Below are positions 7,144 to 60,856 of a stretch of DNA of 64,000 nt, piece by piece. Numbering within the stretch: position 1 is the stretch's first letter; each line of letters starts with the position of its first letter. The stretch comes from Streptomonospora alba (GTDB lineage Bacteria > Actinomycetota > Actinomycetes > Streptosporangiales > Streptosporangiaceae): contig NZ_JROO01000004.1 in assembly GCF_000826685.1 (NCBI RefSeq), positions 1 to 64,000 on the forward strand, given 5' to 3'. A model generated the notes under the pieces. The model was not told the DNA's origin. It made no database searches and was given only the letters and a program-made list of their open reading frames with translations. A program made the position numbers and the translations under genes.

Positions 7144-8364
7144 ATGGCGTTTTCGGTGACCTCTGAGGTGGGACGGCTGCGGCAGGTCATCGTCCACCGC
7201 CCCGGCCTGGAGCTGAGCCGGATCACCCCCTCCAACAACGACGCCCTGCTCTTCGACGACGTGTTGTGGGCCGAGAGGGCGCGCGAGGAGCACGACGCCT
7301 TCACCGCGCTGCTGCGCGACCGCGGTGTGGGGGTGCACCTCTTCGGCGAGCTGCTCGAAGACGTCCTGGCGCTGCCGGAGGCCCGCGCCTACGTGCTGGA
7401 CTGCGTGTGGGACGAGCGGTTCTTCGGCCCGATGGCGGTCGACGCGCTGCGCGCGGCCTTCGAGGCCATGGACCCGGCCACCCTGTGCCGGTTCCTCATC
7501 GGCGGCATCACCAAGCGCGAGCTGCTGGAGCGCATCGAGGAGCCCCGCTCGGTGTGGCTGCACACCCTCGGCCTCGACGAATTCGTCCTCACGCCGCTGC
7601 CCAACCACCTCTTCACCCGCGACACCTCCTGCTGGATCGGCGGCGGCGTGTCGATCAACGCCATGCGCAAGAAGGCGCGGCGCCGCGAGACCATCCACTA
7701 CGAGGCCGTGTACCGCTGGCACCCTCGCTTCGCCGATTCCGCCTTCGAGCTGTGGAATCCGGGCCACGCCTGGGGGCCGGCGACCATCGAGGGCGGCGAC
7801 GTCATGCCGATCGCCGACGGCTCGGTCCTGGTGGGCCTGAGCGAGCGCACCCAGCCCCAGGCCGTGGAGATGCTCGCCCACGAACTGTTCGCCCGCGGCG
7901 GCGCCCGGCGGCTGCTCGGGCTGTGGATGCCCAAGGCCCGCGCCATCATGCACCTGGACACGGTGATGACCTGCGTCGACCGCGGCGTGTTCACCAAGTA
8001 CTCAGGATTGGGCATGCTGCCCTCCTACACCATCGAGCCCGGCGACACCGACAAGGAGCTCAAGGTCACCGACAACCCGCCCGAGCGCATGCACGACGCC
8101 ATCGCCGAGGCGGCCGGGTTGGACGAGATCACCGTGCTCACCCCGACCCAGGACGTGTTCTCCTCCGAGCGCGAGCAGTGGGACGACGGCTGCAACGTCT
8201 TCGCGCTGGAGCCGGGCGTGGTGGTCGCCTACGAGCGCAACGCCGCATCCAACGACTACCTGCGCGAGCACGGCGTGGAGGTGCTGGAGATCAGCGGCAG
8301 CGAACTGGGGCGCGGCCGCGGCGGCCCCCACTGCATGACCTGCCCACTGGAGCGCGAGGACTAG
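7144..8364 (+). CDS. arcA: Arginine deiminase
   Basis: 406 residues, the usual family length. The enzyme hydrolyses L-arginine to citrulline and ammonium in the cytoplasm. The guanidino-modifying-enzyme residues are visible: FTRDTSC near the first third, EGGD, the MHLDTV histidine/aspartate pair, and the nucleophilic cysteine in GGPHCMTCP eleven residues from the C-terminus. The ATG at 7144 has an AGGAG ribosome site 5-9 bases upstream. No ornithine transcarbamylase or carbamate kinase gene is adjacent, so the rest of the arginine deiminase pathway, if present, lies elsewhere. Monocistronic, flanked by oppositely oriented genes. Confidence 0.96.
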
Positions 8365-9717: not shown

Positions 9718-10686
9718 TTAGCGCAAGTCTCGGCCGGTGAGTTCGAGGAAGACGTCTTCGAGGCTGCGCCGCTGTACGCGCAGCCCTTCGGGGGACACGC
9801 CGTTGGCGGCGCACCAGGTGCCCACCGTGGCGACCAGTTCGGGGCCGACCCCCTCGCAGGCCTCGGCGGTGACGGCGTACTCGGTGCGCGGGGCCCTCCC
9901 GCGGCCCTCACCGGGCTCGCGTCCGCCCTCGCCGCGCCGCTCGATCCGCGCGGCGCTCGGCAGCGCCGCCCCCAGCGCGGCGGTGTCCAGGTCGGCGTCG
10001 GCGCGGAAACGCAGCTCCTGGCGGGAGTCGGTCAGCTCGCTGGGGGCGCCGGCGGCCACGGTCCGGCCGTGGTCGATGATCACCACGTGATCGGCGAGGC
10101 GTTCGGCCTCCTCCATGTAGTGGGTCGTCAGGACCACGCCGACTCCGCTGTCGCGCAGCTCGGCGATGAGGTCCCACGTGGCGTGGCGGGCCTGCGGGTC
10201 CAGTCCGGCGGTGGGCTCGTCGAGGAAGACCAGCTCGGGACGGCCGACCACGGCCGCGGCCAGCGACAGCCGCTGCTGCTGGCCGCCGGAGAGCCGGCGG
10301 AAGGGCGTCGCGGCCGCCGAGAGCAGGCCCAGCCGCTCCAACAGCACGTCGGGGGAGACGGGGTGGGCGTGGAAGGAGGCCACCAGGCGCAGCCATTCGC
10401 CGGCGCGGGCCCCGGTGGGCACGCCGCCGGACTGCAGCATCACTCCCACACGGGGTTTGAGCGCGGCGGAGTCGGCACCCGGGTCCAGGCCCAGCACGCG
10501 CACCCGGCCCGCGTCGGCGCGCCGGAACCCCTCGCACGTCTCGACGGTGCTGGTCTTGCCCGCGCCGTTGGGGCCGAGCAGCGCGGTGACCGCGCCGCGG
10601 GCCGCGGAGAACGTCAGGCCCGCCACGGCGGTGGTCGCGCCGTAGCGCTTGACCAGATCGGTGGCCTCGACCGCGGCTGTCTCCAT
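9718..10686 (-). CDS. ABC exporter ATP-binding protein
   Basis: 322 residues from the ATG at 10686. Walker A is GPNGAGKTS, the signature is LSGGQQQR, Walker B is LVFLDEP and the switch histidine lies in TTHYMEEA, so it should be a competent ATPase. A C-terminal extension of about 80 residues, as in DrrA-type exporters, includes a glycine/arginine-rich loop. It drives the permease encoded immediately downstream. The gene diverges from sufR across a 293-bp intergenic region, so its promoter may be influenced by the same regulator, but I see no second operator copy near its start. Confidence 0.93.
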   Translation of the reverse strand: METAAVEATDLVKRYGATTAVAGLTFSAARGAVTALLGPNGAGKTSTVETCEGFRRADAGRVRVLGLDPGADSAALKPRVGVMLQSGGVPTGARAGEWLRLVASFHAHPVSPDVLLERLGLLSAAATPFRRLSGGQQQRLSLAAAVVGRPELVFLDEPTAGLDPQARHATWDLIAELRDSGVGVVLTTHYMEEAERLADHVVIIDHGRTVAAGAPSELTDSRQELRFRADADLDTAALGAALPSAARIERRGEGGREPGEGRGRAPRTEYAVTAEACEGVGPELVATVGTWCAANGVSPEGLRVQRRSLEDVFLELTGRDLR

Positions 10687-55358: not shown

Positions 55359-56759
55359 ATGACCGAGTCCAGCGTGGAGAACGAGCAGCAGCGGCTGAGC
55401 CTGGGAACCGAGGCCGCGAGAAAACTGGCGACGACGACCAAGACGCCTCCGCAGATGCAGGGGATCACCTCCCGCTGGCTGCTGCGCCTACTCCCCTGGA
55501 TCGAGGCGACAGGCGGCTCCTACCGGGTGAACCGGCGACTGACCTACACCGTCGGCGACGGCCGGGTCAGCTTCGTCACCACCGGAGCCGACGTCCGGGT
55601 GATCCCGCGTGAACTCTGCGAACTGTCGCTGCTGCGCGACTTCGGCGACGAGGCGGCGCTCGGGGCACTGGCCGAGCGCTTCACCCAAGAGGAGTACGCG
55701 CCCGGCGACGTCATCGTCGAACGCGGCGACGCGGCCGACCGGGTCTGCCTCATCGCCCACGGAAAAGTGAACCGACTGGGCACCGGCGAGTACGGCAACC
55801 AGACCGTCCTGGGAACCATGATCGACGGCGACCACTTCGGCTCGGCCGCGCTGATCGAGGACGACGGCGCCTGGGACGCCACCGCCAAGGCGGTGACCCC
55901 CTGCACCGTGCTCTCCCTGCGCCGATCGGAGTTCCAGGAGGTCGCCGATCGCTCCGAGGCGCTGCGAGCACACCTGGACCGGGTGAGCGCCCGCGAGACC
56001 CCCGAGGCCGACCCCAGCGGCGAGGCGTCGATCGCGGTGGCCTCGGGCCATGCCGGGGAGCCGGATCTGCCGGGGACGTTCGTGGATTACGAGGCGGCGC
56101 CGCGCGAGTACGAGCTGAGTGTGGCGCAGACGGTGCTGCGGGTGCATACGCGGGTGGCGGATCTGTACAACCAGCCGATGAATCAGCTGGAGGAGCAGAT
56201 CCGGTTGACGGTGGAGGCGCTGCGGGAGCGCCAGGAGGACGAGTTGGTCAACAACCGTGATTTCGGGTTGTTGCACAACGCCGATCTGCGCCAGCGCATC
56301 CCCACGCGCAGCGGCCCGCCCACCCCCGACGACCTCGACGAGCTGCTGGGCACCGTGTGGAAGAACCCCTCCTTCCTGCTCGCCCACCCCCGCGCCATCG
56401 CCGCCTTCGGCCGCGAGTGCAGCCGCCGCGGCGTATATCCCGACAGCGTCGACGTCGAGGGCCACCGGGTGCCCGCCTGGCGGGGCGTGCCCATCTTCCC
56501 CTGCAACAAGATCCCGGTCACCGCCACCCGCAGCACCTCGATCATGGCCATGCGCACCGGTCAGGAGAAGCAGGGCGTCATCGGCCTGCACCAGACCGGC
56601 CTGCCCGACGAGTACCAGCCGGGGCTGTCGGTGCGGTTCATGGGCATCAACGACAAGGCCCTCATGTCGTACCTGGTCAGCACCTACTACTCCGCCGCGG
56701 TGCTGGTCCCCGACGCCCTCGGGATTCTGGAGAACGCCGAGATCGGACGCGAGGACTGA
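55359..56759 (+). CDS. Family 2B encapsulin shell protein 1 (HK97 fold with inserted CNB-like domain)
   Basis: 466 residues from the ATG at 55359. Residues 1-88 (N-arm, with [16 protein letters not shown] and YRVNRRL) and 228-466 ([74 protein letters not shown]) match Family 2 encapsulins, virus-capsid-derived proteins that self-assemble into protein compartments. Residues ~90-205 are a cyclic-nucleotide-binding-like insert ([32 protein letters not shown]) that defines subfamily 2B. The phosphate-binding cassette lacks the usual arginine, so nucleotide binding is doubtful. There is no DNA-binding domain, so it is not a CRP-type regulator. First of two shell genes. Confidence 0.93.
56040..56341 (+). 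repeat. Near-identical tract shared by the two shell genes, copy 1
   Basis: 302 bases identical to 57707-58008 except one base (56287 T versus 57954 C), including 247 bases without any difference. Flanking parts of the two genes differ freely at third positions. Codons in the tract end in G or T far more often (TTG, CGT, GAT, AAT, AGT, GCG) than in the flanks. Confidence 0.95.
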
Positions 56760-56959
56760 GTCCCCTCCGCCTGCGCAGACCGCCCGTGCGGTTCCCCCCC
56801 GTAGCCCCCGATACCGGCCGTACGGGCGCCGGCCGGGCCCGTCAGCGCGTCCCTGCCCCGGCGCGCTGCGCGGGCCCCGGCCGCCCCGCCGCGGCCCGGC
56901 CCGAACGCCGACCGGCCGCCCGGTTCCTCCGCCCGACACCCGGCGCGGCCCGCCCCGAC

Positions 56960-56990
56960 CGCCGAAAACCCCGATTCAGCGGGGACGGCG
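56960..56990 (+). promoter_or_regulatory. Hairpin ahead of the second shell gene
   Basis: CGCCG...CGGCG encloses CCCCG-ATTCAG-CGGGG, a two-part stem ending 32 bases before the second shell gene's ATG and just upstream of its AGGTGG ribosome site. It could be a processing or stability element, or a terminator for part of the shell-1 transcripts. Confidence 0.4.
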
Positions 56991-57022
56991 CCCCACACGA
57001 ACCGAGTTAGGTGGTGCATCCG

Positions 57023-58417
57023 ATGACGGACTCACGCGTCGAGAACGCCCGGCCCGAGAAGCTGAGCCTTGGGACCGAGGCGGCGCGCAACCTCGCGACC
57101 ACGACCAAGACGCCTCCGCAGATGCAGGGGATCACCTCCCGCTGGCTGCTGCGCGTGCTGCCCTGGGTGCAGACCGACGGCGGCACTTACCGGGTGAACC
57201 GCCGGCTGACCTGCACCGTCGGCGACGGCCGGGTCAGCTTCCTCTCCACCGGGCCCCGGATCCGCGTCGTGCCGCCCGAGCTGGCCGAGCTGCGGCCGCT
57301 GCGGGGGTTCGGCGACACGGCCGCGCTGGAGGCGCTCGCCGATCGCTTCGAGCAGCGTGAGTACGAGCCGGGCGACGTAATCGCGGCCGCAGGCGCACCC
57401 CTCGACCACGTCTACCTCATGGCCCACGGCAAGGCCGGTGTGCACCGCGTCGGCGAGTACGGCGACGACGTCGTCGTGGGGATGCTGGTCGACGGCGACC
57501 ACTTCGGCGACGCCGCGCTGGACGACGCCTCCGCCACCTGGAGCGACACCGTCAAGGCCAGGACCCGCTGCACCGTGCTCGCCCTGCGCCGCGCGGACTT
57601 CCAGGAGTTCGCCGAGCGCTCCCCGGAGCTGCGCGCCCACCTGGAGGGGACCCGCAACCGCAGCCCACGCCGCGCCAACAAGTACGGCGAAGCCGACATC
57701 GCCGTCGCCTCGGGCCATGCCGGGGAGCCGGATCTGCCGGGGACGTTCGTGGATTACGAGGCGGCGCCGCGCGAGTACGAGCTGAGTGTGGCGCAGACGG
57801 TGCTGCGGGTGCATACGCGGGTGGCGGATCTGTACAACCAGCCGATGAATCAGCTGGAGGAGCAGATCCGGTTGACGGTGGAGGCGCTGCGGGAGCGCCA
57901 GGAGGACGAGTTGGTCAACAACCGTGATTTCGGGTTGTTGCACAACGCCGATCCGCGCCAGCGCATCCCCACGCGCAGCGGCCCGCCCACCCCCGACGAC
58001 CTCGACGAACTCATCTCCCGCCGCCGCAAGACACGGGTCCTGCTGGCACACCCCCGCGCCATCGCCGCCTTCGGCCGCGAGTGCAGCCGCCGCGGCGTCT
58101 ACCCCGACAGCCTCGACCACCAGGGCCACGCCGTCACCGGTTGGCGCGGCATACCGATGCTGCCCTGCGACAAGATCCCGGTCAGCGCCGCCGGCAGCAG
58201 CTCCATCCTCGCGATGCGCACCGGCGAAGACGACCAGGGCGTCGTCGGCCTGCACCACATCGGCCTGCCCGACGAATACCAGCCGGGGCTGTCGGTGCGG
58301 TTCATGGGCGTCAGCGAGAAGGCGATCACCTCCTACCTGGTCAGCACCTACTACTCCGCTGCGGTGCTGGTCCCCGACGCCCTCGGCGTCCTGGAGAACG
58401 TCGAGATCGGACGCTGA
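57023..58417 (+). CDS. Family 2B encapsulin shell protein 2
   Basis: 464 residues from the ATG at 57023, with AGGTGG eight bases upstream; an in-frame GTG at 57011 overlaps that site. Same architecture as shell 1: N-arm with the identical [19 protein letters not shown]-like insert at ~88-203 ([31 protein letters not shown]) and the shell core. Residues ~229-329 are almost identical to shell 1. The insert is the most divergent part, and the loop after the identical tract differs (ISRRRKTRV versus [10 protein letters not shown]). Two-gene Family 2B shells are known to co-assemble; the identical core fits this. Thirty-four bases separate it from the prenyl synthase gene. Confidence 0.93.
57707..58008 (+). 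repeat. Near-identical tract shared by the two shell genes, copy 2
   Basis: Partner of 56040-56341; see that entry. Identity begins and ends abruptly within the coding sequence, as expected for a gene-conversion tract. Confidence 0.95.
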
Positions 58418-58451
58418 GGCATCCAAGCCACGCACAGGAGGGATCCGGCTC

Positions 58452-59492
58452 ATGGTGGCAATCGAGGAAACCGGGCACGGCCGTCCGACAGCCGAGGTGC
58501 TCGCCGACGTACGCGACGTCGTCGACCCCGCGCTGCGCGCGGCAGTGGCGACCCTTCCCCTCGCCCCGCGGGCGATCGCCGACTACCACTTCGGCTGGCG
58601 CGACGAGCACGGAAACCCGGTGGCCGGTGCGAGCGGCAAACTGTTCCGCCCCGCGCTGGCCCTGCTCGCCGCACGGGCCGCCGGCGGTGCCGCCCACGAC
58701 GCGGTCCCGGCGGCCGTCGCGGTCGAACTGGTGCACAACTTCTCGCTCCTGCACGACGACGTCATGGACGGCGACACCACCCGCCGGCACCGCGCCACCG
58801 CATGGAGCGTGTTCGGTGCGGGCGGCGCCATCCTCGCCGGCGACGCCCTGCTGTCCCTGTCCTTCGACACCCTGGCCGCCAGCGGCCATGCCGCATCCGG
58901 CGACGCGGCACGCCGGCTCCACACCGCGGTGCAGCGGCTCATCGACGGTCAGAGCGCCGACATGGAGTTCGAGCGCCGCACCGACGTCGACACCGCCGAA
59001 TGCCGCGCCATGGCCGAGGCCAAGACCGGCGCCCTGCTCGGTGGCGCCTGCGCGCTCGGGGCCGTTTTCGGCGGAGCCGGGCCGCGGCAGGTCGAGGACA
59101 TGCGGCGGTTCGGCGAACTGCTCGGGCTCGCCTTCCAGCTCGCCGACGATCTGCTGGGAATCTGGGGCGATCCCGCGGTGACAGGCAAACCCGTCCACTC
59201 GGACCTGCGCAACCGGAAGAAGTCGCTGCCGGTCGTGGCTGCGCTGTCTGCCGACACCGCCGAGTCGGGCGAGCTGGTGGCGCTGCTCGCCCGGGACCGG
59301 CCGCTGGAGGGAGCCGAGCTGATCCGCGCCGCCGAGCTGGTGGAGCTGGCGGGCGGGCGCTCCTGGGGCGAGCAGGAGACCGCCGCGCTGCTGCAACGGG
59401 CGCTGGAGCATCTGCGCTGCGCATCCTGCGCGGCGGTACCGGCGGCCGAACTGGCGGCGCTGGCCCGCCTTGCCACCCGACGCGACCACTGA
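58452..59492 (+). CDS. Polyprenyl diphosphate synthase, probable encapsulin cargo
   Basis: 346 residues from the ATG at 58452. Trans-prenyltransferase motifs: first Asp-rich DDVMD (residues 102-106, in [14 protein letters not shown]), second DDLLGIWGD (232-240), and [15 protein letters not shown]. It joins IPP units to an allylic diphosphate. A phenylalanine five residues before the first motif fits short products (C10-C20) by the usual rule, with low certainty. It has only a ~25-residue N-terminal lead and no long disordered tail. Polyprenyl transferases are one of the recognised cargo classes of Family 2 encapsulins, and the gene lies 34 bases after shell 2 and 29 before ispH. Confidence 0.92.
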
Positions 59493-59521
59493 CCCACGGC
59501 CCAGCCGAGGAGGCACAGCAC

Positions 59522-60856
59522 ATGTCCCAGACCGCAGCACCGACCACCGGGGCCGGCGACACGGGCCCGTCACCGGGTTCCGTGGTGATCGCCGAACACC
59601 TCGTCCCCTGGTACGGCTCCGAGATACCCTGCCCGGCGGCCGACCTCGTCGCCGGCGAACTCCGCCGCCGCGGCGCGCGCCAGGTGCGCGGATCCCTGCT
59701 CGTCACCGGGGATGCGGCAGGGCGCACCGCCCAGGCGGGTACCCCAAGCGGACCGGCGCACTCGGACGGGGGAACCGGCGCGCTGTCCGCCACCGGGCAC
59801 ACCGCAGTGGTCCCCGGTTCGGACCCGCCGACCGGCCTGGGCGCCGGGGCGGAGGACCCCGCGGACCCCGCCGCCGAGCGGGCCGCCCGTGAAGCCGTCG
59901 ACGCCTGCCTGGCCGTAGCCGGAACGGCGCGCACCGTCCTGCTCGCCTCGCCCCGGTCCTTCTGCGCCGGAGTCGAACGCGCCGTCGAGGTCGTCGAGCA
60001 GGCCTTGGAGCAGCGGGGAAGTCCGATCTACGTGCGCAAGCAGATCGTGCACAACACCCATGTCGTCGCCGACCTCGAAGCGCGCGGCGCCGTCTTCGTC
60101 GACGAGTTGGAGGCGGTGCCCGAGGGCGCCACCGTGGTCTTCTCCGCGCACGGCGTGTCCCCGCAGGTGCACCGGCAGGCGGACGAGCGCGGGCTGCGCG
60201 TCATCGACGCCACCTGTCCGCTGGTCACCAAGGTGCACACCGAGGCGCGGCGGTTCGCCGCCCGCGGCGACACCGTCGTGCTCATCGGCCACGACGGTCA
60301 TGAGGAAGTCGAGGGGACCCTCGGCGAGGCGCCCGAGAGGACGGTCCTGATCTCGACGCCCGAGGAGGCCGCCGCCCTGGAGGTCGAGAATCCCGAGCGG
60401 GTCTCCTACCTCACCCAGACCACCCTGGCCGTCGACGAGACCGCCGAGGTCGTCGACGCGCTGCGCGCGCGCTTTCCAGCGCTGCGCGGCCCCGCGTCCG
60501 ACGACATCTGCTATGCCACCACCAACCGCCAGGACGCGCTCAGCGCGATCGCCGAAGAGGCCGACCTGGTGCTGGTGGTGGGTTCGGACAACTCCTCCAA
60601 CTCCCAGCGGCTGGTCGAGCTCGCCGTTCGCCGCGGCACCGCCGCCCACCTCATCGACGACACCCGCGACCTCCGCCCGGAGTGGCTGGCCGGAGTACGG
60701 ACGATCGGCCTGACCGCCGGCGCATCGGCGCCTCCGGGCCTCGTCGAAGCCGTGATCAGGGTTCTGGGGGGTCTCGGCCCGGTCACCGTCCACGAACACG
60801 AGATCACCCGCGAGACCGTCCACTTCTCCCTGCCGCCGGCGGTGCGGACGTCGTAA
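59522..60856 (+). CDS. ispH: IspH (HMBPP reductase) with a long N-terminal extension
   Basis: 444 residues; the usual length is ~310-330. The core begins near residue 137 and keeps all expected residues: Fe-S cysteines in [19 protein letters not shown] and CYATTNRQ; histidines in VHNTHVV, SAHGVSP and [16 protein letters not shown]; and [11 protein letters not shown]. It reduces HMBPP to IPP and DMAPP, the last MEP-pathway step. Residues 1-62 contain a short ordered-looking segment ([17 protein letters not shown], then [18 protein letters not shown]); 63-118 are Gly/Ala/Pro/Thr-rich and likely disordered, like cargo-loading regions of Family 2 encapsulins. Last gene of the operon. Whether this is the cell's only IspH cannot be told here. 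Confidence 0.95.

Follow-up and report, generated by a model that had tools for sequence, protein, structure and literature searches.

What do encapsulin shells enclose when the genes behind them encode enzymes of isoprenoid precursor synthesis? The question is raised by a four-gene operon in a 64,000-nucleotide stretch of the Streptomonospora alba genome (contig NZ_JROO01000004.1, positions 1 to 64,000; hereafter the window), in which two shell genes, Enc1 and Enc2, are followed by genes for a polyprenyl diphosphate synthase (PT) and for IspH, the reductase of 4-hydroxy-3-methylbut-2-enyl diphosphate (HMBPP). A first-pass annotation of the window had suggested that the shell might house IspH and PT and act as a channel or sink. 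We hold a different reading with moderate confidence: the operon would provide a shell and the precursor supply for a terpene cyclase cargo encoded in trans, with IspH and PT as a co-expressed supply arm. The four genes are:

Enc1: 55359-56759, + strand, 466 residues; Family 2B encapsulin shell protein with an inserted cyclic-nucleotide-binding (CNB)-like domain
Enc2: 57023-58417, + strand, 464 residues; second Family 2B shell protein
PT: 58452-59492, + strand, 346 residues; polyprenyl diphosphate synthase of the Family 2 encapsulin cargo type
IspH: 59522-60856, + strand, 444 residues; N-terminal extension followed by the HMBPP reductase catalytic part

A two-shell Family 2B operon with PT and IspH

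The genes form a co-directional set, Enc1-Enc2-PT-IspH, with intergenic gaps of 263, 34 and 29 nt, and recomputed gene positions agreed with the coordinates and the 34- and 29-base gaps of the first-pass annotation. Its assignment of both genes to CNB-inserted Family 2B shells also held in a profile search: Enc1 and Enc2 scored 785.8 and 769.2 bits against the Family 2B equivalog NF041163 (cut-off 400), and both carry PF00027 (residues 111-198 in Enc1 and 112-199 in Enc2) N-terminal of the SrpI-like shell domain PF19307 (460 and 460.9 bits). The best PDB matches were 9bje_A for Enc1 (E 4e-208) and 9bix_A for Enc2 (E 2e-198); the closest solved structures cover nearly the full shells, and their entries are named Crp/Fnr family transcriptional regulator or nucleotide-binding protein. 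Diagnostic motif 1 reads TVWK at residue 332 of Enc1 and RRRK at residue 333 of Enc2, whereas at motif 2 (position 364) only VDVEGH of Enc1, and not LDHQGH of Enc2, resembles the published form. No other Family 2B shell locus of the genome scored over the cut-off. A mixed two-component shell has been demonstrated for S. lydicus in the available part of PMC12407261, and by analogy a mixed shell built from both Enc1 and Enc2 is most likely here as well. A scan of the operon for promoters and terminators gave no promoter-like site and two terminator-like sites, against 2.0 expected.

PT scored 464.7 bits against NF041169, "family 2 encapsulin cargo polyprenyl transferase" (cut-off 450), and IspH scored 449.7 bits against NF002189 (cut-off 444) and 318.8 against TIGR00216 (cut-off 187.85), which upheld the earlier identification of a known Family 2 cargo class together with an IspH in one operon. 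The surroundings of the first Asp-rich motif of PT closely resemble those in PTs of hopanoid clusters, and by this kinship PT is probably a farnesyl diphosphate synthase. Neither PT nor IspH bears the published cargo motif as a tag. For cargo PTs, the available part of PMC8346489 reports a disordered N-terminal domain of 50-100 residues; in the window PT the Pfam match begins at residue 58 and the NF041169 match already at residue 14, which leaves little room for a separate N-terminal tag.

A motif-bearing terpene cyclase is encoded on another contig

The window is free of terpene cyclase genes, as the first-pass annotation stated: in the whole genome, PF19086 matches (E <= 0.001) were confined to the two domains of a single 751-residue protein on another contig (C61, 32573-34828; genomes, contigs and loci are designated G, C and L). 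This protein carries GPTGLGTSAGR at residue 343, between its cyclase domains, and GPTGLGTSAAR at residue 727, at its C-terminus. In the available part of PMC8346489, GPTGLGT and GPTGLGTSAAR are described as motifs in terpene cyclases, and the two positions in the C61 protein agree with those given there for geosmin-synthase-like cyclases of Family 2 operons. NF041168 was still the best-scoring family of the C61 cyclase, although the score of 1118.4 lies below the cut-off of 1200. Judged by its sequence, this two-domain geosmin-synthase-like cyclase is most likely the cargo.

We searched for such cyclases in 26 genomes, namely 24 with a shell-PT-IspH operon (see below) plus G030 and G004, and a match to a model of the C61-type cyclase was present in all 26. 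The motif occurred in its strict form in 21 of them and in looser forms in five (G008, G060, G121, G124, G143). The motif-bearing cyclase lay inside the shell operon in three genomes (G004, G088, G113) and outside it in 23, where it was found on another contig, at least 35 kb away, or megabases away on the same contig (G128, G147, G102, G023). Furthermore, a DNA pattern of the motif was present in 37 of 150 genomes, that is, in 37/108 with a shell match (E <= 1e-60) and in 0/42 without one (Fisher p 9.9e-7), and a reversed control pattern was found in 3/150. The pattern missed true copies in G107, G113 and G088; because it misses some copies and the genomes are related, the association of motif and shell is support and not proof.

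Of 38 motif loci that were read, 29 carry the motif within a protein that aligns with the C61 cyclase and eight within other proteins; among the latter, Pfam identifies those of L249 and L274 as terpene synthases, and those of L250, L262, L263 and L270 resemble these. At L267 no gene was called at the motif, and the frame resembles the smaller cyclases. The other two of the eight loci (L265, 3492-4826; L266, 2266-3609) encode a protein of 444-447 residues with an exact GPTGLGTSAAR near its C-terminus, on a contig other than that of the shell genes. The L265 protein gave no Pfam or NCBIfam family match when scanned, and from its motif it is possible that this protein is a new kind of trans-encoded cargo. 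At L077, L078, L092 and L096, a cyclase between Enc1 and Enc2 has degraded motifs (GPRGLGTSAAR, GPRGPGTAAAR), and these genomes hold a further cyclase elsewhere with an intact or nearly intact motif.

IspH recurs behind shell-flanked PTs

To place the operon among its relatives, 150 genomes of the window's family were searched with a PT model, and IspH and shell genes were then searched in the 69 genomes over the cut-off. A shell gene or fragment lay beside 65 of the 69 PTs. An intact IspH on the same strand was found directly downstream of 24 of these 65, spanning 12 genera, while one (G030) was followed by a decayed IspH remnant and 40 had no IspH. Placement of IspH behind shell-flanked PTs is far above chance, and the shell-PT-IspH neighborhood pointed out by the first-pass annotation thus recurs. 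Among the matches listed, the same order was seen at named loci of Prauserella flavalba, Saccharopolyspora spinosa, Kibdelosporangium banguiense and Lentzea waywayandensis, and also in Stackebrandtia albiflava, which has one shell, and Pseudonocardia lacus, where a shell fragment is present, so that named Pseudonocardiaceae and Glycomycetaceae are represented. L160, L161 and L164 are the same operons as those of G107, G124 and G064.

Of the 24 family operons, five have DXS directly behind IspH (L071, L072, L074, L077, L084), and in two of these (L077, L084) IspG comes next; no DXS follows the window IspH. Such occasional partners of IspH are what would be expected of a supply module. Several family operons also contain a two-domain terpene cyclase, between the shells or downstream of IspH. 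In the same-genus relative G030, the decayed operon IspH (L075, ~7434-7644) lies behind intact shells and PT, and IspH is thus dispensable there. G004 has a PT-IspH pair without an adjoining shell. In 33 further genomes of the class with a PT over the cut-off, 30 of them from one genus (f18/g85, probably Streptomyces), no IspH followed PT in 32; the remaining genome, G167, the one in which shells were searched, has PT-IspH without an adjoining shell, and its sole shell gene lies on another contig and lacks the nucleotide-binding part. The S. alba genome also holds a third IspH copy (L103, 14760-18736, on C57), which forms a trio with DXS and IspG, has no extension and adjoins no shell.

The IspH extension is a remnant of HpnG

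The window IspH consists of two parts:

IspH N-terminal extension: 59522-59935, + strand, 138 residues up to the core; truncated remnant, predicted to be folded, of HpnG (hopanoid-associated phosphorylase)
IspH catalytic part: 59936-60856, + strand; C148, C232 and C330 invariant in 25/25 aligned sequences

From the corresponding residues of E. coli IspH, we take the three invariant cysteines to be the cluster ligands. An extension is present in all 24 operon IspHs of the family: the IspH match is preceded by 98-157 residues (by 134 in the window protein), and one cysteine within the extension is invariant across 25 aligned rows. A profile of the extension had no significant match in PDB, Pfam or NCBIfam. 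It did match the IspHs of hopanoid clusters, which are fused to HpnG; the HpnG part of these fusions passes the cut-off of PF01048 and stays below that of TIGR03468. When aligned to 13 HpnG domains with hhalign, the extension reached a probability of 97.7 (E 1.8e-12) over 49 columns, and the invariant D-M-E region of HpnG lies outside these columns. Thus, the extension is a remnant of HpnG and no whole phosphorylase. In an AlphaFold2 model, the block-mean predicted local distance difference test score was 94-97 for residues 21-60 and 87-97 for residues 91-140, and below 50 for residues 1-12 and 65-86, by which most of the extension is predicted to be folded. It is absent from IspH at five other shell-PT-IspH loci and present without an adjoining shell gene at L140, L165 and L081 (for L165, in the flanks considered).

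A disordered cargo tag was rejected as an explanation of the extension, which is folded in the model, homologous to HpnG, found without an adjoining shell and missing at five shell-PT-IspH loci. An early reading as a copy of IspH domain 1 was dropped. The resemblance of PPTGLGA at residues 102-108 of the window IspH to the GPTGLGT motif is most likely a coincidence, as PTGLG is situated at a predicted beta-strand (104-110) and similar stretches occur in HpnG-remnant proteins. Small proteins of this kind include one with AGLGAAA in Crossiella and one with GVAIGA in the S. alba genome itself. Small HpnG-remnant-like proteins with a truncated IspH tail and no iron-sulfur domains are encoded at L151 (~9810-10121; C2:173810-174121 of the S. 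alba genome), L157 (10364-10987) and L165 (11158-11781); in Crossiella, one HpnG-remnant small protein sits between IspH and DXS. At L165 (767-2059) and L098 (13768-15153) there are diverged IspH-like paralogues, 37-42% identical to the window IspH core, with an HpnG-remnant-like N-terminus.

IspH joined Family 2B operons at least twice

A tree of IspH cores was built from 76 rows; the long branches L165_767 and L098_13894 were left out, L097 was skipped by the core filter, and housekeeping IspHs entered where the gene caller had found them. The window-type IspHs and their kin formed a single group (95/96) with 37 members, of which 31 come from shell operons and six do not, and the extension-less shell IspHs fell inside this same group. 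The group shares its side of a 100/100 branch with 12 HpnG-IspH fusions of hopanoid clusters, and the housekeeping IspHs, including the C1 copy of the S. alba genome, lie on the opposite side. Probably, the operon acquired PT and IspH together from a hopanoid cluster.

In a second type of operon (type II), PT' and IspH' are upstream of the shells, and the seven IspH' form a group of their own (100/99) on the housekeeping side. The loci (TC, terpene cyclase) are:

L271, L272, L279, L280 and L082: PT'-IspH'-Enc-TC-Enc
L277: PT'-IspH'-Enc-Enc-TC
L275: one shell in the stretch

The type II IspHs of L271 and L279 begin at the core and have no extension. A tree forcing the IspHs of both operon types together was rejected (approximately unbiased test, p 0.00022). 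Thus, with the two groups on opposite sides of the tree, IspH joined Family 2B operons at least twice.

Gene conversion between the shell genes

The two shell genes share a tract of identical DNA:

Gene-conversion tract, Enc1 half: 56040-56285, + strand (coordinates from codon numbers); codons 228-309, DNA-identical to Enc2

These 82 identical codons stand amid lower identity, 61-90% in 30-codon stretches outside the tract (94% at the tract end), which points to recent gene conversion. In 7 of 14 other pairs compared there were likewise identical runs, 79-203 codons long, and at L075 and L089 the run stops 4-5 codons short of diagnostic motif 1.

Discussion

In the mechanism that we favor, IspH would convert HMBPP to isopentenyl and dimethylallyl diphosphate (IPP and DMAPP), PT would condense these to a prenyl diphosphate, and the prenyl diphosphate would enter the shell and be cyclised there by the C61 cyclase. 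IspH would be active outside the lumen or at the outer surface, within reach of ferredoxin or flavodoxin. PT and IspH would have been acquired jointly from a hopanoid cluster, with IspH retaining in its extension a folded remnant of its former fusion partner HpnG. That these shells encapsulate enzymes at all, how the cyclase is loaded and what it makes, how the shells assemble and where PT and IspH reside are, at this stage, what we infer from the sequences.

Several observations weigh against a cyclase cargo supplied by PT and IspH. PT is itself named as cargo by NCBIfam and in the available part of PMC8346489, and may therefore be inside. IspH is absent behind 40 of the 65 shell-flanked PTs, and is thus optional. 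None of the 26 cyclases reaches the 1200-bit cut-off of NF041168, and the kinship of the genomes makes the Fisher p overstate their independence. Geosmin-synthase-like cyclases are common in actinobacteria, so that finding one in 26/26 genomes is partly expected. Seven cyclases read at shell-less loci belong to another subfamily, with the motif in 0/7; in this reading of cyclases, L084_07, L161_04 and L161_05 were fragments or a second record of L084. In genus g9, the motifs of the in-operon cyclases are degraded, and one cyclase in L087 has none.

A shell with PT as its only cargo would make linear prenyl diphosphate, IspH would be a supply gene only and the C61 cyclase would have nothing to do with the shell. 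The listing of PTs as putative cargo by NCBIfam and in the available part of PMC8346489 fits this reading, as does an operon without a cyclase; however, a long disordered N-terminal region is not evident in PT, given how near the N-terminus its NF041169 match starts, and the motif pattern of the cyclase is confined to genomes with a shell match. We regard it as fairly unlikely. The channel of the first-pass annotation, which places both IspH and PT in the lumen of a shell that takes in HMBPP, releases prenyl diphosphate, retains IPP and DMAPP and shields the oxygen-labile cluster, draws on the operon order and tight spacing, on the naming of the PT family as cargo and on the recruitment of IspH to Family 2B operons at least twice. 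Yet among the IspHs read, none of either operon type has the known motif as a disordered tag, and the extension is a predicted folded HpnG remnant that occurs without an adjoining shell (L140, L165, L081) and is missing from five shell-PT-IspH loci and from type II. The available part of PMC8837944 gives flavodoxin or ferredoxin as the electron source of IspH; no gene for such a reductant is among the four of the operon, and these proteins would presumably be kept out by a closed shell. As DXS and IspG join the operon in some relatives, as in a supply module, and it is the C61 cyclase that carries the cargo motif, we do not favor the channel and consider it unlikely.

Two further possibilities give the HpnG-derived extension a role at the shell. 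In one, far-encoded cyclase cargo would be combined with PT and IspH docked at the shell surface via this domain, as a dispersed terpenoid organelle with HMBPP going in and a volatile sesquiterpenoid coming out; we think this quite unlikely. In the other, the remnant would have been reshaped into an encapsulation or shell-docking domain that holds IspH on or in the shell. The extension is kept in all 24 shell-PT-IspH genomes of the family, is conserved and predicted to be folded, and contains the cyclase-motif-like PPTGLGA. This PTGLG, however, coincides with a beta-strand and has counterparts in small HpnG-remnant proteins, the group of 37 includes extension-less shell IspHs, and the extension is also found without an adjoining shell gene, and such a domain appears very unlikely to us. 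The supply of a trans-encoded cyclase cargo thus remains the reading that we prefer.

Parts of this system are already known. In the available text of PMC8346489, PTs and terpene cyclases are putative Family 2B cargo, two-shell operons are described and "terpenoid precursor biosynthesis" genes are frequent in PT operons; the window shares the PT, as a putative cargo class, with the PT and TC/PT operons of that study. PMC8049743, in its available part, names polyprenyl diphosphate synthase as the most frequent neighbor of Family 2b shells. Two shells with a PT were, by these accounts, known before. The S. lydicus two-component system (available part of PMC12407261) has the same tandem CNB-inserted shells with identical motif 1 (TVWK/RRRK), but it belongs to a xylulose-kinase operon whereas PT and IspH follow the shells in the window; the operon types named there are TC, PT, TC/PT, XK, CD and "Other", and IspH is not named. 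The main text of PMC8346489 has no occurrence of IspH, hydroxy-3-methylbut, deoxy-D-xylulose, hopanoid or squalene; cargo was sought there within 20 open reading frames of the shell, and its available part mentions no trans-encoded cyclases. Among the titles and abstracts covered, a part of the literature without supplements, there was no report of IspH in Family 2B operons or of trans-encoded cyclases.

Actinobacterial hopanoid clusters (HpnC-HpnD-HpnE-PT-SHC-[HpnG-IspH]-HpnH) resemble the window operon in a PT ~50-55% identical to its PT, in an IspH on the same side of the tree and in an HpnG part homologous to the extension; they differ in having no shell, a longer HpnG domain with the invariant D-M-E, and squalene/hopene enzymes. 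Type II operons likewise combine Family 2B shells, PT and IspH, but their IspH' is 56-58% identical, lacks the extension, belongs with the housekeeping group and lies upstream of the shells, and their PT' is 32-36% identical. What is new here is the IspH behind a shell-flanked PT, its double recruitment, its HpnG-derived extension and the motif-bearing cyclase encoded in trans.

The HpnG remnant reveals the origin of the supply genes, and the double recruitment of IspH suggests that the supply of IPP and DMAPP limits these compartments. Should the cyclase be the cargo, neighborhood alone would have guided the assignment of some "PT-only" Family 2B operons, whose true cargo would be encoded elsewhere and would be found by a whole-genome search for the motif; these shells would then also be tied to geosmin-type volatiles.

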